A stretch of DNA of 64,000 bases, taken from the NCBI RefSeq assembly GCF_002807665.1, contig NZ_PEAY01000001.1, positions 372,001 through 436,000 on the forward strand, written 5' to 3'. Made by a program: the position numbers and the translations under genes. The stretch comes from Neoalteromonas facilis. GTDB lineage: Bacteria > Pseudomonadota > Gammaproteobacteria > Enterobacterales > Alteromonadaceae. This document shows, piece by piece, positions 604 to 44,945 of the stretch. The notes below the pieces were generated by a model. It searched no databases and was not told where the DNA came from. It worked only from the letters and a program-made list of their open reading frames with translations. The first letter of the stretch is position 1. Each line of letters opens with the position of its first letter.

Positions 604-3072
604 ATGGCGCGATTATCAGGTATTCAGCGATTGTTCGAAGTCGGCATGATGTTGGCGTGTACATTCGCATTTTTCTTATTGCTCTCAATCGTCTCTTTTA
701 ATCCAGCCGACCCAGGCTGGAGTCAAGTAGGCTTGCAAACCAATGTTCAAAACTGGGGCGGGGCAACAGGCGCTTGGGTGGCAGATATTCTGTTATTCTT
801 TTTTGGTTATCTTGCATACGCGGCGCCTATCGGTTGTGCGTTGATTGGCTGGTTCCTATTTCAGCACGTTAAAACTCTGGCTGAATTTGATTACTTAACC
901 ATAGGGTTGAGGATCATTGGCTTTGTATTATTTATGTTAGGTGCGTCAAGTTTACTTAGTCTTAACGCTGACAATATATACAGTTTTACTGCGGGCGGTA
1001 TGGTGGGAGACGTAATGAGCTCTGCGCTGATGCCATATTTTAACCTGGCCGGCACGACACTGCTTCTACTCTGTTTTGTCCTAACCGGCATTACGTTAAT
1101 GACGGGTCTATCTTGGCTTTTTGTTATCGATAGTATCGGCCGGTATACAATCAAAACCGCTAAAGCGACTACGTCGTTACCCCATAAATTTCAACAGCTA
1201 GAATTGCCTTCGATGAAACGCTTAAGCAATAACAACGAAGAGCTGTCTAGTGACGTAACCATTACTCGATTACGCGCCACGCCGGAAGATAATCCGAGCG
1301 CAGAGCCGGTCAAGCAACAACCCCATTTTGGTATTCCTGATGAAGTATTTGAAAACGATGTGTCCAGTCAGTCTTCTGATGCAGATTCTGAGGTGCCTGC
1401 GATCAGTCGAATAGACAGTTTAAAACAGCGTTTCGCCTCACGTCGTTCTATTGACAGAGAACATACAAGTGAACAAAACGAAGAGCAGTTAGTTAATAGT
1501 ACTACTGGCGGTGCTACCACATCACAGGGCAAAGCCGCCACGCAGGACGAAGTCGTCGTTAAATCTGAACCTTCGACGCCTATGCCTTCTTTTGACTTAC
1601 TTGAGCGACCAGATAAGCACGAGAACCCAATCTCACCGGAAGAGCTAGAACAAGTAAGCCGTTTAGTTGAACAAAAACTGGCAGACTTCAATATAGAAGC
1701 CAGTGTAGTAGGGGTGTACCCCGGCCCAGTGATCACACGATTTGAACTTGATTTAGCACCCGGCGTGAAAGTGAGCAAAATAACAGCCTTGTCTAAAGAC
1801 CTCGCCAGAGCGATGTCTGCTATTTCGGTTCGTGTCGTTGAAGTTATACCAGGCAAATCTGTGATTGGTCTGGAATTACCTAACAAAAATAGAGAAATGG
1901 TGCGCCTAAGTGAAGTCATTACCTGCGAAGCGTTCCAGTCTGCGGCTTCACCATTAACGATGGTGCTGGGGGCGGATATTTCGGGTAAACCGGTTATTGT
2001 TGACTTAGCCAAAATGCCACACTTACTTGTCGCGGGTACAACGGGTTCAGGTAAATCCGTTGGCGTAAACGTTATGATTTTGAGCTTATTGTACAAATCT
2101 AAGCCTGAAGACGTGCGTATGATCATGATTGATCCGAAGATGTTGGAATTGTCGGTTTACGAAGGAATTCCACACTTACTTGCCGAAGTTGTTACCGATA
2201 TGAAAGAAGCCGCTAATGCGCTGCGTTGGTGTGTAGGCGAAATGGAACGGCGGTATCGCTTAATGTCTGAGTTAGGCGTAAGAAATTTAAAAGGCTATAA
2301 CGCAAAGATATTAGCGGCGATAGAGTCAGGCACGCCAATTAAAGATCCGTTATGGCGTCATGAAGAGAGTATGCTGAATGAAGCGCCTGATTTAGAAAAG
2401 CTTCCGTCAATCGTTGTCGTCGTTGACGAATTTGCTGACATGATGATGATTGTGGGCAAAAAGGTCGAGGAGCTAATTGCGCGTATTGCACAAAAGGCGC
2501 GTGCAGCAGGCATTCACTTGGTATTGGCAACTCAGCGACCATCCGTCGATGTTATTACAGGGCTAATTAAAGCCAATATTCCAACCCGAATTGCGTTTCA
2601 AGTGTCGAGCAAAATTGACTCCAGAACCATTCTTGATCAGCAAGGCGCTGAAGCTTTATTAGGTGCTGGTGATATGTTGTATTTACCGCCAGGAACGGCT
2701 GTTCCGACACGTGTTCATGGAGCTTTTGTTGATGACCATGAAGTGCATGCCGTTGTAGCGGATTGGAAACAGCGCGGTGAACCAGAATACATCGATGAAA
2801 TATTGAACCCTGAAGCGACGGCTGAGATTTTACTTCCTGGCGAACAACCGGAAGGCGAGGATCAAGAGATGGACGCTTTTTATGATGAAGCGGTTGCTTT
2901 TGTAACACAAGCCCGCAAGGTATCGGTAAGTAGTGTGCAACGAAAATTTAGAATTGGTTACAATAGAGCCGCCAGAATTGTTGAACAAATGGAACTAAGC
3001 GGCGTCGTAAGTGCATCGGGCCATAACGGCAATAGAGAGGTATTAGCTCCACCTCCGCCACCAAGGGATTAA
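604..3072 (+). CDS. ftsK: DNA translocase FtsK
   Basis: This 822-residue septal DNA pump couples division to chromosome segregation and activates XerCD at dif. The N-terminus has four predicted membrane helices (about residues 14-175). A short hydrophilic linker (about 190-340) follows, far shorter than the E. coli linker. The motor has Walker A GTTGSGKS near residue 478 and a Walker B ending in VVVVDEFAD near residue 605. The C-terminal winged-helix gamma domain (about 755-815, [18 protein letters not shown]) reads KOPS sequences. The end is proline-rich (APPPPPRD). lolA starts 3 bases downstream, so the two are probably co-transcribed. A weak GGG lies just before the ATG at 604. Confidence 0.97.
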
Positions 3073-3075
3073 AAG

Positions 3076-3690
3076 ATGATTAATAACTTTGTAATTGCGC
3101 TTGTCTTTACAATTACGAGCCTATCGAGCATGGCAAGTGACGATGCCAAATCACAATTAAGAAGTATGCTCAAGGATATCAATACCTATCAGGCATCCTT
3201 TACACAGATTGTAAAAGATGCCCAGAAGAATCTGGTACATGAAGCGTCGGGCTCCATAGTCATTGAGCGCCCACAAAAGTTGTATTGGCATACCGAACTG
3301 CCAGATGAGGTTTTATTGGTAGCTGATGGGCAATCCGTATCACAAGTCGATTACTTTGTTGAGCAAATAACCGTGGTCGATCAAAGTGATGCCGTTCAAG
3401 ACAATCCTATTATGCTGTTAGCATCAGACAATGATGCGGATTGGCTTAATGTAAACGTGACCTTTAGTGAAGACGCGTTTGTTGTCACCCCAATAAATGA
3501 AAGTGCGATAACGCAACTCAAGTTAGTGTTCGATGATAATCAGTTAAGCAGCTTAGAAAGTATCGACACACAACAACAAAAAAGTGTATTAACGTTTACA
3601 GGCAGAGTGATCAATCAAGCTGTACCTGCTGATCGTTTTATCGTCGAGAATATTGGTGGATTCGTGCTGGATGACCAACGCAAACGATAA
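3076..3690 (+). CDS. lolA: Outer-membrane lipoprotein carrier LolA
   Basis: This 204-residue periplasmic chaperone takes lipoproteins from LolCDE and passes them to LolB at the outer membrane. A signal peptide is visible (about residues 1-20, ending LSSMAS). The mature part has the LolA pattern: TYQASFTQIVKD near residue 36, then ASGSIVIERPQKLYWHTE, which gives the half-barrel with aromatic and arginine lid residues. It starts 3 bases after ftsK. Its 3' end overlaps the start of rarA by 20 bases, so translation is probably coupled. The order ftsK-lolA-rarA is standard for the class. Confidence 0.93.
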   Translation: MINNFVIALVFTITSLSSMASDDAKSQLRSMLKDINTYQASFTQIVKDAQKNLVHEASGSIVIERPQKLYWHTELPDEVLLVADGQSVSQVDYFVEQITVVDQSDAVQDNPIMLLASDNDADWLNVNVTFSEDAFVVTPINESAITQLKLVFDDNQLSSLESIDTQQQKSVLTFTGRVINQAVPADRFIVENIGGFVLDDQRKR

Positions 3691-5014
3691 TTTATCACTT
3701 TTTCCTCCACCAGAGCTCAACGCTCCACTTGCCGCGCGTTTACGTCCAACTTGTCTTGAAGACGTTGTTGGTCAACAACATTTAATTGCAGACGGTAAGC
3801 CGTTGGCGGAAATTCTGCGCCAAGACGCCTCTACATCAATCATATTGTGGGGCCCTCCAGGCACGGGCAAAACGACGTTAGCAGAACTCATTGCACAACA
3901 CAGCAATGCAAACTTCATCCGTATATCGGCGGTGACTGACGGCGTAAAAGAGATCAGAGGCGCTATCGAAAAGGCGACTCATGCTTTAGAGCAGCATCAG
4001 CGTACGGTGGTATTTGTGGATGAAGTACACCGTTTCAATAAATCCCAGCAAGATGCGTTTCTACCGCATATAGAGTCTGGTTTGATCCAATTTATTGGCG
4101 CAACAACAGAGAATCCTTCGTTTTCGCTTAATAACGCGTTGCTCTCACGTACGCGTTTGTTTGTATTAAAGTCTTTAAGTACAGAGGATTTAGAAGCGTT
4201 GATTATAAAAGCAACCAAAGCGATAAATCATAGCCGTGAAAAGCCTCTGACCGTTACGCCACAAGCGATTAAAAGCCTTCTTAATGTTTCTTCAGGAGAT
4301 GGGCGAAAGTTATTAACTCAGTTTGAACTGGCCGTTCAGTTATGCGATGGCGATACTGTTGAGTTGGCTCATGTCACTATGGCTCAGGGGGAAACCTCGA
4401 CCGCGTTTGATCGCGGCGGTGATTATTTTTATGATCATTTGTCGGCTTTTCACAAGTCAGTAAGAGGATCTTCTGTTGATGGAGCCTTGTTCTACTTTGC
4501 ACGTTTAATACAAGCGGGTTGTGAGGCCACTGTTGTAGCTCGTCGTTTATTGGCGATAGCCAGTGAAGATATTGGTAATGCAGATCCAAAAGCTTTACAA
4601 GTGTGTCTAAATGCTTGGGATATCTATCATCGCGTAGGGGCATCTGAAGGTGAAAGAGCGATAGCGCAAGCAATTGTATATTGCGCATTGGCCCCTAAAA
4701 GTAATGCAGTTTACGCAGCATTTAAAGCAGCAAAGCAAGCAGCTCAAAAGCACCCTGACGCACCAATCCCCAATCACTTACGTAACGCGCCAACGGCTGT
4801 TGCACGCTCTCAAGGACATGGGGAGGGTTATCGCTATGCACATAATGAGCCCAATGCCTATGCTGCCGGTGAGGTATATTTACCCGAAAATGTTGACGGT
4901 GGATTTTATTACCCTACTGAACGCGGGTTTGAAAAGCAGTTGAAAGCCAAGCAAGATTTTTTGGATAGTCTTGATTTACATTTTCATCAAAATAACGGGA
5001 ATCACGCAGAATGA
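3671..5014 (+). CDS. rarA: Replication-associated recombination protein RarA (MgsA)
   Basis: A 447-residue AAA+ ATPase that acts at stalled replication forks with SSB. Walker A GPPGTGKT lies near residue 61 and a DEVH-type Walker B (VVFVDEVHRF) near 116; sensor-1 GATTENPSF follows. The C-terminal MgsA tetramerisation region includes residues resembling IASEDIGNADP. The ATG at 3671 gives MTNANDNLSLF, matching the usual family N-terminus, and was chosen over a TTG six codons upstream. The gene overlaps lolA by 20 bases and crcB by 4 (ATGA), so lolA-rarA-crcB looks like one translationally coupled unit. Confidence 0.95.
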   Translation: MTNANDNLSLFPPPELNAPLAARLRPTCLEDVVGQQHLIADGKPLAEILRQDASTSIILWGPPGTGKTTLAELIAQHSNANFIRISAVTDGVKEIRGAIEKATHALEQHQRTVVFVDEVHRFNKSQQDAFLPHIESGLIQFIGATTENPSFSLNNALLSRTRLFVLKSLSTEDLEALIIKATKAINHSREKPLTVTPQAIKSLLNVSSGDGRKLLTQFELAVQLCDGDTVELAHVTMAQGETSTAFDRGGDYFYDHLSAFHKSVRGSSVDGALFYFARLIQAGCEATVVARRLLAIASEDIGNADPKALQVCLNAWDIYHRVGASEGERAIAQAIVYCALAPKSNAVYAAFKAAKQAAQKHPDAPIPNHLRNAPTAVARSQGHGEGYRYAHNEPNAYAAGEVYLPENVDGGFYYPTERGFEKQLKAKQDFLDSLDLHFHQNNGNHAE

Positions 5015-5379
5015 ATTACCTGTATGTCGCCATTGGCGGTGCCATTGGCGCCAGTCTCCGATATTTTGTCATGTTAAGAGCAGAAGATTGGTTTGGAAAA
5101 GGCATGCCCTTTGGTACACTAGCGGTTAACGTAATTGGCTCCTTTTTATTAGGTGTATTTTATGCGCTAATGCATCAAAATGCGCCGATTGATAATGCGT
5201 ACCGCGCGTTTTTTGCCATAGGTGTATTGGGCGCATTTACTACGTTTTCAACCTTCTCGTTTGATACGGTTTTGCTACTCCAACAGGGAGAGTGGTTAAA
5301 AGCATTGGCCAACGTTGGACTTAATGTATTTGTTTGTATTATCGCCGCAGGATCTGCGGTGTATTTAGTGAAAGGATAA
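5011..5379 (+). CDS. crcB: Fluoride channel Fluc/CrcB
   Basis: A 122-residue four-helix membrane protein that forms the dual-topology dimeric fluoride exporter. Family marks are GAIGASLRY near residue 10, PFGTLAVNVIGSFLLG (32-47, with the conserved Asn) and the phenylalanine-rich GAFTTFSTFSFD (about 75-86), which lines the ion path. Its ATG overlaps the rarA stop codon, so expression is probably tied to rarA. I see no fluoride riboswitch: the 9-base gap to serS and the upstream coding sequence leave no room for one. A single gene suggests a homodimer. Confidence 0.93.
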   Translation: MNYLYVAIGGAIGASLRYFVMLRAEDWFGKGMPFGTLAVNVIGSFLLGVFYALMHQNAPIDNAYRAFFAIGVLGAFTTFSTFSFDTVLLLQQGEWLKALANVGLNVFVCIIAAGSAVYLVKG

Positions 5380-6675
<1,296 letters not shown>

Positions 6676-6676
6676 G

Positions 6677-7018
6677 TTACAAGCACTTGGCAGGTTTAGG
6701 TAAACCTGCCAATTTTGTTGCCTGTTTAGCTGGTCCATTGGGAAAGAGTCGATGTAAATATCGGCTGTTGCCCTTATCGGGGCCTAACGAAGCAGCCATG
6801 GCTTTCACTAGTGCTCTAATAGCTGGGCTGGTTTCATATTCCAGGTAAAAGTTACGCACAAACCAAATAACTTCCCAGTGAGACTCGGTCAAAGTAACGT
6901 TGTCTAATTCTGCTATATACAAAGCAACAGACTCAGACCAGTCTTGAACGTTCTTCAAGTAACCTAATTTATCCACCGGTATAGAACGTTCGTCTACAAC
7001 TATCGCGTTGTCACTCAT
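6677..7018 (-). CDS. tusE: Sulfur-relay protein TusE (DsrC family)
   Basis: A 113-residue protein that accepts persulfide sulfur from TusBCD and hands it to MnmA for 2-thiolation of wobble uridine in tRNA Lys, Glu and Gln. The conserved C-terminal swinging arm ends in PKPAKCL with the penultimate cysteine. The second cysteine of true sulfite-reductase DsrC is missing, which fits TusE rather than DsrC. The ATG at 7018 ([10 protein letters not shown]) was preferred over an upstream in-frame start. The gene overlaps tusB by 4 bases and converges on serS with one base between stop codons. Confidence 0.94.
6687..6719 (+). terminator. Intrinsic terminator of serS, inside the tusE coding sequence
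   Basis: A perfect inverted repeat (TTGGCAGGTTT at 6687-6697 against AAACCTGCCAA at 6702-6712, loop AGGT) is followed by TTTTGTTG on the + strand. It starts 12 bases after the serS stop. The same bases encode the conserved C-terminal residues of TusE on the other strand. Downstream of the stem in the tusE direction there is no U-run, so it should act only on serS transcripts. Confidence 0.8.
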
Positions 7019-7278
7019 AATGAAATACTTCTCTTTGCAGACACTTGCCACTTAGCAGCTTCATTAAGGGGTATCGTTGCAATGTCAGGAAATTGAATAC
7101 CTCTGACGTACATATGCTCCTCACAGGCATAAATATCGCACATAAGATGCTCTTTTAATTTGTCACAATAATAAAGCGCATCTTCCATGACAATTACGGT
7201 ATCTTGGCTATTGATAAGTTGAAGCCGGTCATCAGATGTAACGTCAGACTGAAGTTTTCGAATAACCCAAAGTGTCAT
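7015..7278 (-). CDS. tusB: Sulfur-relay subunit TusB (DsrH family)
   Basis: An 87-residue subunit of the hexameric TusBCD complex in tRNA 2-thiouridine synthesis. It is recognised by position between tusC and tusE, by size (about 95 residues in E. coli) and by the DsrH-like core with a hydrophobic strand, EDALYYC and a cysteine. It overlaps tusE by 4 bases and follows tusC with one base between. Sequence conservation of TusB is low, so the call leans partly on context. Confidence 0.88.
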
Positions 7279-7279
7279 C

Positions 7280-7636
7280 TTAAAAGCTCACCACAAAATC
7301 ATATTGATCAGTCAAAGCCGATAATTGGTTTGTGTCCAATATTTCGGCCCCCTCAATATCATTGATAAAATTAACGCAACGCTGCGTAAGACTCTGTTCG
7401 CAGATATATACATGCTCAACATCAAAAAAGTTAAGGGACTTGAGTCTTTTTTTCGCATCTTTTGTTTTAAACACATCCTGCGTAGCAGCCGTGAGCACAT
7501 GAAATACACCATCATTGATCAATAAAACATCGCAAGAATGACCGTAACCGCCTGCAGCCATAGCAAAGTCTAATGCATCTTTACTTTCAGTCGTTTGATG
7601 TGGTGCTTGTGAAATGATGCTGAGAATGGTTGCCAT
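7280..7636 (-). CDS. tusC: Sulfur-relay subunit TusC (DsrF family)
   Basis: A 118-residue DsrE/DsrF-like subunit of TusBCD. It shows the family start with a beta strand, then APHQTTESKDALDFAMAAG and a central strand leading into DGVFHVL. It shares its first base with the last base of tusD (7636). No catalytic cysteine is expected in this subunit; transfer runs through TusD to TusE. Length matches E. coli TusC (119). Confidence 0.92.
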   Translation of the reverse strand: MATILSIISQAPHQTTESKDALDFAMAAGGYGHSCDVLLINDGVFHVLTAATQDVFKTKDAKKRLKSLNFFDVEHVYICEQSLTQRCVNFINDIEGAEILDTNQLSALTDQYDFVVSF

Positions 7637-8025
7637 TAAAATTGCACCAACTTATCTGCGTCGTGCAAACGGGTAAAGAATTCTCCAATACCAACTTGCT
7701 CGAACGGTTGATGTAAATTGTATCCATTCGCTTCATATTCATGGGAGAGGGCAGTATCAATAACGCCGCGCTTCTCAGCTGATGATACGCAAACCAGTAA
7801 AGGGATATTAAATTCTAGCGAAAACTCACGCCATGCAGTGTTTGCATTAAATTCATCAGATGGTACATGGAGATAACCATTCGCATTTGCACAACCAGCT
7901 TGATAGAAAAAAACGTTGTTGATGGCATGTCCAGCAGAGAGAAAAGTGCGCAATGTAAACAAAGCTTCTTGCATACGTAATGCATGTTCAGGACTGCTGG
8001 TAATTAGGCAACTTACTGTTTTCAT
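7636..8025 (-). CDS. tusD: Sulfur-relay subunit TusD (DsrE family)
   Basis: A 129-residue subunit that receives sulfur from TusA on its active cysteine and passes it on to TusE. Visible marks are NVFFYQAGCANAN (about residues 38-50), then CVSSAEKRGVID carrying the conserved cysteine, and the C-terminal DKLVQF typical of TusD. I chose the ATG at 8025 because a GGA lies 5 bases upstream on the - strand; an ATG at 8031 is possible. It is the first gene of tusDCBE. The terminator of the upstream yccA-like gene ends only about 8 bases before this start, so tus expression may depend on read-through or a promoter hidden there. Confidence 0.93.
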   Translation of the reverse strand: MKTVSCLITSSPEHALRMQEALFTLRTFLSAGHAINNVFFYQAGCANANGYLHVPSDEFNANTAWREFSLEFNIPLLVCVSSAEKRGVIDTALSHEYEANGYNLHQPFEQVGIGEFFTRLHDADKLVQF

Positions 8026-8032
8026 ATACATC

Positions 8033-8060
8033 CAAAAAAAACACCCCATAGAAGGGGCGT
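8033..8060 (-). terminator. Intrinsic terminator after the yccA-like gene
   Basis: Read on the - strand, ACGCCCC (8060-8054), loop ttctat and GGGGTGT (8047-8041) form a 7-bp stem with one G-U pair, followed by eight T (8040-8033). It lies 28 bases after the stop codon of the Bax-inhibitor-like gene and just before tusD. Confidence 0.8.
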
Positions 8061-39269: not shown

Positions 39270-41399
39270 CTAGCTGAGATATTCCGCTAGTGTTTCTAAT
39301 AGGAGTGTTTTGTCTATTGGCTTCGTCAAAACATCATTCATCCCGACTTCGATGCATACAGCTCTGTCAGATTTTTGAACGTTAGCGGTCAATCCAATAA
39401 TAGGAATATTTACATTGAATTGGTCTCTAATAATACCGGTAGCCGAAACCCCGTCTAGAACCGGCATTTGCATATCCATCAAAATTAGATCGGGTTTAGT
39501 TTTTATTTTATTGATAATCTCAACTGCTTCTTGGCCATTTACAGCTACTAACGTTTTATACTGTTCAGCGGCTAAAATTGTCGTCACGATTTCAGCATTA
39601 ATCGGATTATCTTCAACCACTAGAATAACTTTGCCTTGACCATCAACGTTGCGCCGATTGAGTACTTTATCTCGCGCATTAATAAGCAGTTGACGTACTT
39701 GCTGCTTTTCTAATGGCTTTTTGGTTAGGCGTTTTATGCTGGATTTCAGATCGTCGGGAATTTCAACTTGATCATAGGCAGCGGTCATCATAATAGTCTG
39801 AAGAGGGCAGGAGTTACAGCTCTGTTGCAACTGCCTTACAACATCAAAACCATCTAAATCAGGCATGAACAAGTCAATTATAAGCACATCTACACACGGA
39901 GATTGTTCGAGGAATCTCACACCCGATTCATATTGTTGTACTTCAAAGCCGAGCGCTACCGCTTGGGCATAGACAAACTCCCTGGTTGCTTCCAAGTCAT
40001 CTACAACAGCACAGGTTAGCTTGCGCCCAGTATTGAGATCACTAACATTTACCGGAGGTGCTTGGCCTATTTTAATTGGAATGGATACGCTGAAAGTACT
40101 ACCTCGGTCTACTTCACTCTCAACGCTTATGGTGCCGTTAAAGAGTTCGACAAGTTTTGACACAATACTCAGTCCTAATCCAGTCCCGCCGAATTTTCGC
40201 GATGTTGAACTGTCAGCCTGAGTAAATGCCTGAAATATCTTGCTTTGTTGCTCAACTGTCATGCCAATGCCGCTATCTTGGATTTGGATATCCAAATGAT
40301 GAGCTTTATTTTTAACGGTTACTGCTACGGATAATCGTATTTCACCTTGGTGAGTAAACTTTATCGCATTGGTTACAATGTTGGTTAAAATTTGTGACAG
40401 TTTACCGGGATCAGAATAGATATAATGCGGCAATTCATTTGGGCAATCGTAGACAAACCTAATGTTTTTTTGTCGACATAATATATCAGTATTGGTACAA
40501 ATATTATCCATTACTTCCAACAGTGAAAAGTCAGTTAGACTCAGCACCATTTTACCGGATTCAATTTTTTCAAAATCTAAAATATCGTTAATGAGATCAA
40601 GCAGTTGTTGTCCGGAACGTTTGGCTTTACTGATATAGGATTGCGCTTTTTCAGGATTGGCTTCGGCTAAATCGAGCATGCCAAACATGCCTGTCATTGG
40701 TGTTCGAAGTTCATGCGACATATTGGCCAAAAATTGCGACTTTACTTGTTTAGCTTCTATCGCTTTTTGTTCGGATTGTTGCGCTGCAGTGACTGATTCC
40801 TTAAGTTTTGCAATGTAATTCACTAACGCAGCGCGCATTGGTTCAAAGATAAACACGACTTCTAAGAGCAACACTAACAAAGTAATTAACCACACCATAG
40901 TTTCTAGTCGATACAGTTTTTCTGTGCGCTTGCTAGCGTCATATTCAAAAGCCTCAACGACGGCGTTTAAATCATACAACAAGGTGTCTACATCATTCTG
41001 TTTAAGAATTTGAGATTGGATTTGCGATGAAGTGGGGTTTTGTATGAATGCATATGCGTCTTCGATATAGGTTTTTACTCTACTTTGAAGATTGGCGTCA
41101 CCATAATAAAGCTCTAACACGCGTTCAGGAAGGTATTCTATATTCACTAAAAATTGATTGTTTGATTCAAATGTCTCAACGGCTCTTGTAAGCGGCTCAA
41201 TGAAGTTCCCGTTATCAATTTGCTTAAATGAGAGCAGGGCAATTCGCTGGCTTAACATGCGCTGCTGGCCTGCGATGTTAATGATACATGCATCATCTTG
41301 TTGCTGATCAATCAAATAGCTCAACCACCCCCACGTAAAGGTGACCAAACAAGCAATTATAGTTACAGCGATAAAATATTTGAGTCGAAGGTTTTGCAT
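39270..41399 (-). CDS. Hybrid sensor histidine kinase with two receiver domains
   Basis: A 709-residue membrane kinase. Two membrane helices (about 8-28 and 165-185) enclose a periplasmic domain starting IAGQQRMLSQRIA, which resembles the PilJ/NarX type four-helix sensor. The HisKA domain has MSHELRTPM near 228 and the HATPase has GTGLGLSIV near 405. The first receiver has its aspartate in IIDLFMPDLDG near 505. The second has LILMDMQMPVLDG near 639 with TKP later. There is no Hpt domain. It is divergent from the receiver and GGDEF-EAL genes. Confidence 0.92.
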   Translation of the reverse strand: MQNLRLKYFIAVTIIACLVTFTWGWLSYLIDQQQDDACIINIAGQQRMLSQRIALLSFKQIDNGNFIEPLTRAVETFESNNQFLVNIEYLPERVLELYYGDANLQSRVKTYIEDAYAFIQNPTSSQIQSQILKQNDVDTLLYDLNAVVEAFEYDASKRTEKLYRLETMVWLITLLVLLLEVVFIFEPMRAALVNYIAKLKESVTAAQQSEQKAIEAKQVKSQFLANMSHELRTPMTGMFGMLDLAEANPEKAQSYISKAKRSGQQLLDLINDILDFEKIESGKMVLSLTDFSLLEVMDNICTNTDILCRQKNIRFVYDCPNELPHYIYSDPGKLSQILTNIVTNAIKFTHQGEIRLSVAVTVKNKAHHLDIQIQDSGIGMTVEQQSKIFQAFTQADSSTSRKFGGTGLGLSIVSKLVELFNGTISVESEVDRGSTFSVSIPIKIGQAPPVNVSDLNTGRKLTCAVVDDLEATREFVYAQAVALGFEVQQYESGVRFLEQSPCVDVLIIDLFMPDLDGFDVVRQLQQSCNSCPLQTIMMTAAYDQVEIPDDLKSSIKRLTKKPLEKQQVRQLLINARDKVLNRRNVDGQGKVILVVEDNPINAEIVTTILAAEQYKTLVAVNGQEAVEIINKIKTKPDLILMDMQMPVLDGVSATGIIRDQFNVNIPIIGLTANVQKSDRAVCIEVGMNDVLTKPIDKTLLLETLAEYLS

Positions 41400-41704
41400 C
41401 TAAAGAAATCTATTCCATACGTCACACCATTAGATACTGAAGTATTTAACGGAACATATATACGAGCGTAGACTACTGGAGAATTAAAGGATAAATTTTT
41501 TATACCTTTTTTTAGAAGCGTTTCTAAAACTAAGTTAATGAAACCTATTCGTATAACTTTCGAATAGCTTTCTATGCACAAAAGTTACAATAAGATAGAT
41601 TTTATTTGTCTCGTTGGTTTGAAGGAGTTTAAAACAAGAGCTACATTCAATTTATTAGTGCTATAGAAAATATCTTCAAGTAAGCATGGTCTGAGGAGTT
41701 CAGT
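41400..41704. other. Divergent intergenic region before the receiver gene
   Basis: About 305 AT-rich bases between the hybrid kinase start and the receiver gene. It should hold two back-to-back promoters. I see no clear operator; the only decisive element is GAGGAG at 41693-41698, which sets the unusual receiver start. Confidence 0.5.
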
Positions 41705-42226
41705 ATTAAAGATCCAGACAATGAGGCGAACAATAAAGAGTCACATGATGCTATTGATAAATCTTTAGAGTCGCTTATAGAAACGCAATCTAGCAATGCA
41801 AAGATCTTGATTATTGAAGATTGCCCAGTAATGACAGCTATGTATGAAACCATGCTGGCAGAAAGAGGGTCGTGTGAATCGGCAGCCACGGCTAAAGAAG
41901 CGATTTCACTATTAAAAACAAAATCCTTCGATCTTGTGCTTCTTGACCACCATTTGCCTGACGCTACAGGTTTACAGTTGTGTAAAAGTATTCGCAGACA
42001 ATTCTCTCAGCGTGTCCTGCCAATTATTATTATTACCGGCACGAACGACCGTCAATTGGAACAACAATTTTGGGAAGCACAGTGCTCAGACTTTGTCACA
42101 AAACCATTTGAAGCGAGTACTTTGAGACATAGAGTGGCTTCGCACGTAAAACTTAAATTAGCGTTTGATTTATTACATAAGCTTTCGAATCAAGACGAAA
42201 ACCAAGCGATGTTGTTCTCGCGGTGA
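41705..42226 (+). CDS. Stand-alone receiver protein, apparently with an AUU start
   Basis: A 173-residue response regulator without an output domain. Receiver: AKILIIEDCPVM (about 33-44) supplies the acid pair, LLDHHLPD near 81 the phospho-acceptor, and ITGTND and VTKPFEA the switch Thr and Lys. The frame is open from 41684 but has no ATG, GTG or TTG before the receiver; the first TTG (41807) would cut off strand beta-1 and has no ribosome-binding site. A perfect GAGGAG at 41693-41698 stands 6 bases before ATT at 41705, so AUU initiation, as known for infC, is the best reading. Alternatives are a point mutation or a sequencing error. It is 130 bases ahead of the GGDEF-EAL gene. Confidence 0.75.
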   Translation: MKDPDNEANNKESHDAIDKSLESLIETQSSNAKILIIEDCPVMTAMYETMLAERGSCESAATAKEAISLLKTKSFDLVLLDHHLPDATGLQLCKSIRRQFSQRVLPIIIITGTNDRQLEQQFWEAQCSDFVTKPFEASTLRHRVASHVKLKLAFDLLHKLSNQDENQAMLFSR

Positions 42227-42356
42227 TTTAATGTGGAATAAATCGTCATCGACGATTTTATTAATTCGTCACATAAGTGAGTTTAGATAACAGTGCAGAC
42301 AACAGGCTTTGTAGAGTCATATTTAACAGACGCGCCATACAAAGAAGCAGAGGTCT

Positions 42357-44945
42357 GTGTTTTATGAAAAAAAGGAATACGTAGTACGCATGGATACTAA
42401 GGTGAATTTACAGGATGTATTTAAAGATTTTGTTGCGCGGAATAAGGCCTATTTTTCGCAGCTATTGTTAGGTCTGAACCATACCGCTAGGGCCGATTTA
42501 CTGTTTGTTGCAGCGGTTAACAATGATTCGAGTATCGCATCTACATTGTGCGCCACTTCAAACAATTCAATTATCAAAAACTTCAATTACTCTCTGTCAG
42601 AAAGTCCATGTGAGGATGTATTATCAGGCACGCCTTGTGTGCATACGAACAATGTCACTAAAGCATATCCCAACGATAAAATGCTCATTGATATGGCGTT
42701 TGAGGGGTATGTAGGTTATCCCATATTGGTCAATGGGATCCCGATAGGTCTAATCGTAGGTCTGTTTAAGGAGCCGATTCAGGTTATAGAGCGATTCGAA
42801 TATTTATTCGAACTTTTTGCGACCAATATTAACTTACTTTTTGACGCAGAATACCGGGCTGAAAGACTGGAAAACCAAACTCTATTATTAGAAGAAATTT
42901 GTGAGATATCCAACGTTGGTGCCTGGGAGTTTGATGTCGTAAAACAATCTTTGTTTTGGTCGAAGCAGGTTTACTATATACACTCAATTCCGCTGAATAC
43001 GGTGATAACACCTGATGTTGCAATAGCCTATTATCAGCCCTCAGACATTCCGCTAATAACCGAAGCCTTTGAAACCTTATTGCGCGATGGCACTGGCTAT
43101 GAGTTGACACTCCAAATCATTGACGCTAACGAAACACCTAAATGGATTAAAACCACAGGGCGAGCCAGCTTTGATAGCGAAGGTAACGTGGTAAGAGTAT
43201 TTGGCGCAATTGAAGATATAACCGTAGAAAAAGAACGCATCGACATAGAGATCGATCGTGTTAGCTATCTCAATAATATTCTAAACAGTTTTAAAGACGC
43301 TGTTGTTATCTCAGATACCAAGGGCATCATTCAAGTCGTTAATAATTCAGCAAGTGATGTATTCCAGTACGCTAGCGAAGAGCTTATCGGAAAAAATGTT
43401 TCAGTGTTAATGCCTGAACCCTATGCATCCGAACATCAAACTTATATCAGAAAGTATTTAGATTCAGGTGACAGTAAAATCATTGGGGTGGGGCGCCAAT
43501 TACCGGCTAAACGCAAAGACCAAAGTATCTTCCAAATGGAGTTATCTCTGACGGAGTTTTATTTCCAGGGAAAGTGCCAATATATAGGGGTTATTCGCGA
43601 TATCAGCGAACGCATTAAAGCGCAAGATGCGATCTATAAAATGGCATTTACAGATCCAACCTCGGGTCTAAAAAATCGCTCTTGGTTTGAACGTGAGGTT
43701 AAAAGTTTATTATCTGTCGCATCGATCAAAGATCATTACGTGTTTGCCACGATCGTTGATATAGACAAGCTAAACAGTATAAACCAACGCTTTGGTATGC
43801 AGGCTGGAAATAAAGCGATAAAAGCAATAGCCGAAACCTTATCTAAATTGAACAGTTCTGATTTCCATGTATATAAAACTGGCGAGGATTCCTTCGTCGT
43901 GCTGTCAGTGCGAAGTAGTGAGAATGAAGAATCCCTGCAGACCCATGTTCAAACCATAGAAGACTTACTGCATAGTCAATCGGGTATCCAAATACAACAT
44001 TTGTCTGGGTTGATTTCAGTTACTGTGAGTATTGCCAGCATCATTGTATCTGCGAGAAACGCTTCTGTAGAAACACTCGTTAGCTATCTTGAGTACTCTA
44101 AACGCAAAGCCAAATTGCTGTCACCGAAAGGGAGTTTTTTACTGTCTGGCGATAATTTGATTGAATACCAACGGACGACCGGTTTAAGAAGTGCGTTGGA
44201 AAAACTAACGGAGTCTGGCGAACTGCGCTTAGTAATGCAGCCACAATTCACCTCGCGAACAACGTTTAATTGTTCAGAAGCGCTTATACGTTGGCAATCA
44301 AAAGAGTATGGTTTTGTCAGTCCTATGGAATTCATTCCTCTCGCTGAAGAGTCTAATGCCATTATTTATATCGGAGAGTGGGTTATCAACGAAGCCTGCC
44401 GACTTATATCGGAAGCTAAGAATAAGGGAATTGAAACAAAGATCGCCGTAAATATTAGTGGCAAGCATTTATTATATGCCGAATTTAAATCGTCTTTGAT
44501 TAAAACCCTTTACAAATGGAATATTGAGCCCAGTAGTCTGATATTAGAGTTAACAGAAACGGCTTTAATCACTAACATTGATGCAGTAACCACTATGATG
44601 ACAGAGTTGAAAGCACAAGGCTTTTATTTTTCTATTGATGATTTTGGTACTGGTTATTCAAGTCTGGCTTACCTCAAAAGTTTGCCTATCGATGAGCTTA
44701 AGATTGACAAGCAGTTTATCGATATGATTGATGAGGATAAAAAGACCTCTACAAGCATCGTTAATTTGATTATCGATATGGCAGCAGTCTTGAATGTATC
44801 CACAGTTGCAGAAGGGGTGGAAACCGAAGTCCAATATGACTATCTACAGAGTAAAAATTGCCACGCAGTGCAGGGGTATTTGTTGTCTAAACCACTGGAA
44901 GAACAAGCCTGGTTTGAGGCGTTAGCTAAACTAAAAAGTGAATAA
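42357..44945 (+). CDS. GAF-PAS-PAS-GGDEF-EAL protein, probably a c-di-GMP phosphodiesterase
   Basis: An 862-residue cytosolic signalling protein. GAF-like domain (about 15-165), PAS (about 175-290, with WIKTTGRASFDSEG), PAS (about 305-420), GGDEF (about 430-590) and EAL (about 610-855). The GGDEF active site is degenerate: the motif reads TGEDSF near 508, so cyclase activity is unlikely. The EAL domain keeps SEALIRW near 640, the glutamate in LELTETALI, DDFGTGYSSL and AEGVETE, so it should hydrolyse c-di-GMP. The start is uncertain: GTG 42357 has GAGG only 3 bases upstream, while ATG 42390 has AAGGA 14 bases upstream. Confidence 0.9.
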   Translation: MFYEKKEYVVRMDTKVNLQDVFKDFVARNKAYFSQLLLGLNHTARADLLFVAAVNNDSSIASTLCATSNNSIIKNFNYSLSESPCEDVLSGTPCVHTNNVTKAYPNDKMLIDMAFEGYVGYPILVNGIPIGLIVGLFKEPIQVIERFEYLFELFATNINLLFDAEYRAERLENQTLLLEEICEISNVGAWEFDVVKQSLFWSKQVYYIHSIPLNTVITPDVAIAYYQPSDIPLITEAFETLLRDGTGYELTLQIIDANETPKWIKTTGRASFDSEGNVVRVFGAIEDITVEKERIDIEIDRVSYLNNILNSFKDAVVISDTKGIIQVVNNSASDVFQYASEELIGKNVSVLMPEPYASEHQTYIRKYLDSGDSKIIGVGRQLPAKRKDQSIFQMELSLTEFYFQGKCQYIGVIRDISERIKAQDAIYKMAFTDPTSGLKNRSWFEREVKSLLSVASIKDHYVFATIVDIDKLNSINQRFGMQAGNKAIKAIAETLSKLNSSDFHVYKTGEDSFVVLSVRSSENEESLQTHVQTIEDLLHSQSGIQIQHLSGLISVTVSIASIIVSARNASVETLVSYLEYSKRKAKLLSPKGSFLLSGDNLIEYQRTTGLRSALEKLTESGELRLVMQPQFTSRTTFNCSEALIRWQSKEYGFVSPMEFIPLAEESNAIIYIGEWVINEACRLISEAKNKGIETKIAVNISGKHLLYAEFKSSLIKTLYKWNIEPSSLILELTETALITNIDAVTTMMTELKAQGFYFSIDDFGTGYSSLAYLKSLPIDELKIDKQFIDMIDEDKKTSTSIVNLIIDMAAVLNVSTVAEGVETEVQYDYLQSKNCHAVQGYLLSKPLEEQAWFEALAKLKSE

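Follow-up and report, generated by a model that had tools for sequence, protein, structure and literature searches.

Which codon starts translation when no canonical start precedes the folded core of a protein is the question raised by a receiver frame of Neoalteromonas facilis, located in a window of 64,000 nucleotides (positions 372,001 to 436,000 of contig NZ_PEAY01000001.1). Behind an in-frame TAA at 41681–41683, the frame is open on the forward strand from 41684 to the TGA at 42224–42226, and it contains no ATG, GTG or TTG until the TTG at 41807. The initial annotation, which had reported that no canonical start precedes the receiver core and that GAGGAG stands six bases ahead of an ATT at 41705, is borne out on both points. 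The Shine-Dalgarno (SD) motif GAGGAG occupies 41693–41698, where UGAGGAG can form seven pairs with the anti-SD sequence, and it is separated by the six-nucleotide spacer TTCAGT from the candidate AUU initiation codon (ATT, 41705–41707), which is followed by AAA G, as in this genome's infC frame. Start prediction usually presumes ATG, GTG or TTG (PMC5472188). Read from the ATT, the gene (41705–42226, forward strand) encodes 173 aa plus a stop codon and is REC-GGDEF-like, without a GGDEF domain.

The anti-SD pairing ahead of ATT 41705 amounts to −8.7 kcal/mol, close to the −9.3 kcal/mol of the infC frame and stronger than that of all 31 reference ATGs (median −4.7, best −8.6 kcal/mol, 4 of them 0), a crude set of first ATGs, taken from frames in which 250 aa or more follow, not all of them true starts. 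Pairing of this strength is found ahead of 0.7% of the 6000 near-cognate codons sampled, which corresponds to a chance of approximately 2.8% over the four in-frame candidates. Other controls were less favourable: GAGGAG, six bases and ATT occur once in the window against 0.32 expected, and at least once in 28 of 100 shuffles, while GAGGAG with an ATT at a spacing of 4–9 nt was observed three times against 1.54 expected, so that the motif on its own is unremarkable in the window. An SD of five bases with an in-frame ATT was found in 6 of 1337 coding stretches of 41 codons lacking canonical codons. Base shuffling produced the combination in 1.5% of trials, and shuffling the region by codons did so in 12.6%; when any of ATT, ATC, ATA or CTG was allowed, these values rose to 18 of 1337, 4.9% and 23.1%, respectively.

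The coding signal ahead of the core was compared among the window's 59 non-overlapping open reading frames of 110 aa or more, which are ORFs and not proven genes. The receiver is alone among them in possessing a long, start-less and codon-biased upstream stretch, with 41 codons and a coding log-odds of +6.84, where the second-longest start-less stretch extends to 21 codons and scores +1.35; exclusion of the receiver from the training set left these values at +6.87 and +1.33. Within the receiver frame, with stops omitted, the score is −2.4 for 41632–41680, +0.2 for 41684–41704, +4.9 for 41705–41752 and +1.8 for 41753–41806. A score as high as that of the 16 codons 41705–41752 (+4.87) occurs in 2.7% of 5801 stop-free windows from intergenic DNA, in 0.3% of 9736 windows read in a wrong frame and in 15% of 17377 windows within coding sequence. 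The start-less coding stretch constitutes the stronger evidence, whereas the SD by itself is moderate evidence. Because the ATT at 41705 has an SD and also sits where the codon signal begins, AUU 41705 is favoured and has better support than any other start of the frame. The apparent AUU start of the initial annotation stands to that extent, while the actual use of the AUU by ribosomes is what we infer from the SD pairing and the coding stretch.

Concerning RNA structure at the start, both the SD and the ATT can be enclosed by a weak stem, and the structure was not unusual in any of three windows (z of −0.04, 1.09 and −0.93). A riboswitch or other known RNA was sought and rejected, as the two Rfam matches within 41300–42500 both lie far below their gathering scores. 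Re-initiation after the mini-ORF ATG GTC TGA (41686–41694) is a further candidate mechanism.

The protein carries a Response_reg domain (Pfam PF00072, E 1.2e-23) at 41804–42136 and, numbered from the ATT as residue 1, retains E38/D39, D81, T111 and K133, which we take to be the phospho-site residues of the receiver family. The nearest relatives found are REC-GGDEF diguanylate cyclases: two come from other genera (54% identity in G021 and 53% in G018), and the third, at 46%, is a paralogue encoded on contig 2 of its own genome. Pfam analysis identified a GGDEF domain in all three relatives and none in the window receiver frame. The relatives continue past the receiver with a linker reading SNQD, SNKD or SSFD and then a full GGDEF domain; the window protein ends instead in a C-terminal tail (42185–42223) in which SNQD, aligning with this linker, is followed by the nine residues ENQAMLFSR and the stop. 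In view of the REC-GGDEF matches, the kept linker and the absent GGDEF domain, the gene is most simply read as a REC-GGDEF gene minus its enzyme domain. The initial annotation had described a stand-alone receiver, which is correct insofar as an output domain is absent, but it had missed both the kinship to REC-GGDEF cyclases and the loss of GGDEF.

How the domain was lost was also considered. An internal deletion was suggested by the resemblance, by eye only, of ENQAMLFSR to the GRNQ near the end of a GGDEF protein (that of locus L017 terminates in GRNQIKT). The tail aligns to LTGLxNRR in one alignment and to the middle of GGDEF in another, and since neither sets it at the GGDEF C-terminus an internal deletion is no more than a candidate route. 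No direct repeats were found in 41380–42400, which has no bearing on a deletion either way. A terminator-like hairpin of eight pairs, three of them G-C, lies at 42240–42258 on the forward strand, 13 nt past the stop codon, and is weak evidence, as the scan returned two such sites in the region against 0.7 expected.

Of the 50 positions at which the other three proteins do not vary, 44 are kept by the window receiver and the six changes are mild; the same test applied to each of these three proteins in turn gave 44 of 48, 44 of 55 and 44 of 55. All 173 codons are free of stops and frameshifts, and the per-codon score exceeds that of 23 of 46 window ORFs. The retention of the phospho-site residues and of 44 of 50 invariant positions argues that the receiver is not long dead, and a long-dead pseudogene appears unlikely.

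The receiver has a narrow distribution. At E ≤ 1e-35 a match was present in 3 of 395 genomes drawn from the family, its own genome included, in draws that overlap, are not independent and sample a larger family; a later draw searched at 1e-27 added two proteins of 36–39% identity. At strict cut-offs, the genome searches returned nothing beyond the two relatives of 53–54% and the 46% paralogue, three congeners yielded no match to the receiver as DNA or, at 1e-35, as protein, and a genome-contig collection yielded only eight distant receivers of 25–40% identity. Plasmids provided 2573 matching records, all below 60% identity. A phage origin was considered and rejected, as blastn against phages returned nothing and viral contigs contained no relative. 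A relative close enough for a direct measure of selection was not found in the collections searched. The three nearest relatives found (46–54% identity) start with ATGs situated 18, 22 and 21 residues ahead of the core and none of them shares the ATT start; in an ungapped count from the core, their ATGs would fall 15, 11 and 12 codons past the ATT, at places where the receiver frame offers no canonical codon.

Downstream of the receiver lies a PAS-PAS-GGDEF-EAL gene (42357–44945, forward strand). Its own start is ambiguous between GTG 42357 (SD −5.2 kcal/mol) and the in-frame ATG 42390. The GGDEF motif of this gene reads GEDSF, the EAL and DDFGTGYSS motifs are present, and its product is likely a phosphodiesterase judging from these motifs. 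The EAL gene has a 48% paralogue, which lies close to the REC-GGDEF paralogue of contig 2, a neighbourhood that the initial annotation had also missed: this cluster (2722–8034 of locus L039, on a contig of 28.6 kb) comprises the REC-GGDEF gene on the reverse strand and the PAS-GGDEF-EAL gene on the forward strand, with one gene between them that appears by eye to be PAS/methyl-accepting-like. Both kinds of gene also occur within approximately 9 kb in G021. On the Pseudoalteromonas plasmid NZ_CP077771.1 (L063, 359–3903), an EAL-domain gene is placed divergently beside a diguanylate cyclase whose receiver matches that of the window at 34%, a pairing of the same type. On the other side of the receiver, a hybrid histidine kinase with HisKA, HATPase and two REC domains (39270–41399, reverse strand) is divergently oriented; it has a 72% relative in the congener G002, where the 18 kb around that relative contain no orthologue of the receiver or of the EAL gene.

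Taking these data together, we favour the reading, to which we assign a probability slightly above one half (about 0.52), that translation of the receiver begins at AUU 41705, downstream of a strong GAGGAG, that the protein is a GGDEF-less descendant of a REC-GGDEF protein and that its output is low and IF3-sensitive. Ribosomes would initiate at this AUU to produce a 173-residue receiver, derived from a REC-GGDEF diguanylate cyclase that would have lost GGDEF either through an internal deletion or through truncation and erosion. Since IF3 acts against AUU, the level of the receiver would be expected to be low and to rise when IF3 is limiting, by analogy with infC; the tie to IF3 raised in the initial annotation has its sole basis in the known behaviour of AUU starts. 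The protein is presumably still phosphorylatable and, devoid of its enzyme domain, may act as a phosphate sink or as a partner binder in a cyclic-di-GMP circuit; this circuit may take in the downstream EAL gene, and the partner could be the kinase or the EAL protein. Several points weigh against this reading: none of the three nearest relatives found has the ATT, AUG-to-AUU switches are very rare, the RNA at the start is not unusual in structure, and the gene, having already lost one domain, may be decaying.

No other single explanation does as well, and its odds are about even against recent damage, a base error, a different start and a dead gene combined. The initial annotation had named a mutated ATG or a base error as the main alternative; it is retained here as a rival, to which must be added a frameshift version, overlooked at the time, that starts from the ATG at 41686. 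In its general form this rival, which we regard as unlikely although it deserves serious consideration, holds that the start was recently damaged or misread, by a base change at an ancestral ATG, GTG or TTG at 41705 or by an insertion or deletion of one base just after ATG 41686, be it real or an assembly error. Any such damage would have to be recent, as the receiver looks selected. A base change at 41705 accounts for the SD equally well, the receiver is otherwise intact, and the missing GGDEF domain already represents one earlier damage to the gene; against it, AUG-to-AUU switches are very rare, with a single case reported among 61,358 reconstructed AUG starts (PMC5622118). As for the indel version, the ATG of the out-of-frame ATG GTC TGA (41686–41694, forward strand) is only 19 nt upstream in another frame, and an N-terminus reading MSEEFSIKDP would result, but the five codons 41690–41704 score −0.7 and this ATG is nearly without an SD (−0.2 kcal/mol, though 4 of the 31 reference ATGs have 0), which leaves the SD before the ATT to chance (approximately 3%).

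Initiation at the TTG (41807–41809, forward strand), the first canonical codon of the frame, would produce a 139-residue receiver with its first strand clipped, the upstream codons being a relic. The fold would barely suffer in Pfam terms, as the TTG encodes the second residue of the domain and only one model position is lost (E 1.2e-23 becoming 5.4e-23); yet the codon has no SD pairing (0 kcal/mol), 41 codon-biased codons would go untranslated and the three relatives carry 19–23 residues ahead of this point, and we consider this start improbable. Marginally less probable again is an unexpressed pseudogene of a REC-GGDEF diguanylate cyclase in which start and catalytic domain have both been lost. 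Two losses in a single gene, and a lineage restriction evident from the lack of DNA or 1e-35 protein matches in the three congeners, are in keeping with such a relic, but the uninterrupted 173 codons, the phospho-site residues, the retained invariant positions with their mild changes and the ordinary codon score are not what it would predict.

Whether other receivers of this kind start similarly was surveyed in 33 loci, 30 of which have a receiver core within reach (the large hybrids L016, L020 and L025 do not, and GGDEF was not checked in all 30). A canonical codon is absent before the core in 2 of these 30 REC frames, the window receiver and L061 (1456–2388, forward strand, contig C28 of G118, another genus), where ATT AAG GGC stands 8 nt past GGAG with a pairing of −5.6 kcal/mol. 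In L017, from the same genus as L061 (forward strand, contig C12 of G012), an ATC at 1462 lies 6 nt past AAGGAG (−8.3 kcal/mol), and the only canonical codons as far as the core are two TTGs downstream of it (0 and −3.5 kcal/mol) and a GTG at the core (0 kcal/mol). Both are REC-GGDEF-like frames with a GGEEF motif by eye; they share 52% identity, and the alignment does not extend to their N-termini. In L007, L009, L012 and L021, too, a near-cognate codon pairs better than all canonical ones, with a margin of 0.2 to 2.0 kcal/mol, which urges caution with regard to SD strength alone and leaves as notable only the absence of a canonical codon in two frames and the wide gap in L017. The pattern of three frames in 30 is no more than suggestive; that receivers of the REC-GGDEF group would repeatedly use near-cognate starts discriminated by IF3, and so couple cyclic-di-GMP signalling to the translation-initiation state, seems to us doubtful.

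Few bacterial genes with an AUU start are on record; pcnB of E. coli is one. The pcnB frame of the present genome (L056, 1396–1480) has no ATG, GTG or TTG in its first 28 codons and presents an ATC at codon 5, nine bases past AGGAG, and this pcnB likely starts at AUC on the basis of its sequence. Its infC frame (contig 1, reverse strand) reads GGAGG, 8 nt and ATT AAA GGC, with no canonical codon among the first 24. With both of these starts predicted, the organism probably has further genes of this class. The infC gene of E. coli starts with ATT and sigR of Streptomyces with GTC, the latter being repressed by IF3 (PMC5472188). In Staphylococcus aureus, the AUU of cvfC1 and the AUA of ccpN sit behind extended SDs, and reporters of these starts gave approximately 10% of AUG in RPMI, with ccpN reaching up to 30% in rich medium (PMC13009471), while a conserved ATT, accompanied by a putative ribosome-binding site that is likewise conserved, has been proposed for ainS of Vibrio fischeri (PMC5601948). 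An AUU start for a receiver or diguanylate cyclase gene was not found in the literature searched, i.e. titles and abstracts, with most subscription journals outside the search.

If the favoured reading is true, an AUU-start receiver would link a cyclic-di-GMP circuit to the level of IF3, in parallel to sigR, whose start codon ties an oxidative-stress sigma factor to the same factor. It would further show how annotation clips such proteins, here to a TTG inside the fold, and would provide an example of a lone receiver born from an enzyme by loss of the catalytic domain.

Among the known systems, infC shares with the receiver gene an ATT behind a strong SD, the lack of a canonical codon nearby and the string ATT AAA G, but infC is essential and its non-canonical start is well characterised, whereas the start proposed here belongs to a receiver gene and is seen in a single genome. 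The sigR gene likewise encodes a regulator and has a non-canonical start that follows an extensive SD; its product is, however, a sigma factor and its GTC start has been shown by experiment and is conserved across Streptomyces (PMC5472188). At the protein level, the receiver resembles the PleD-class REC-GGDEF diguanylate cyclases (PDB 1w25 and 6zxb), with identities of 54, 53 and 46% to three proteins of the REC-GGDEF type, and having in common with these cyclases a receiver with phospho-site residues, while the catalytic GGDEF domain is absent from the window protein. CheY-like single-domain response regulators are likewise composed of a receiver only, without an output domain. By sequence score, however, the window receiver is nearer to PleD than to CheY, its best solved relatives being PleD and a REC-GGDEF protein, with CheY entries after them, and it keeps the SNQD linker of its REC-GGDEF relatives.
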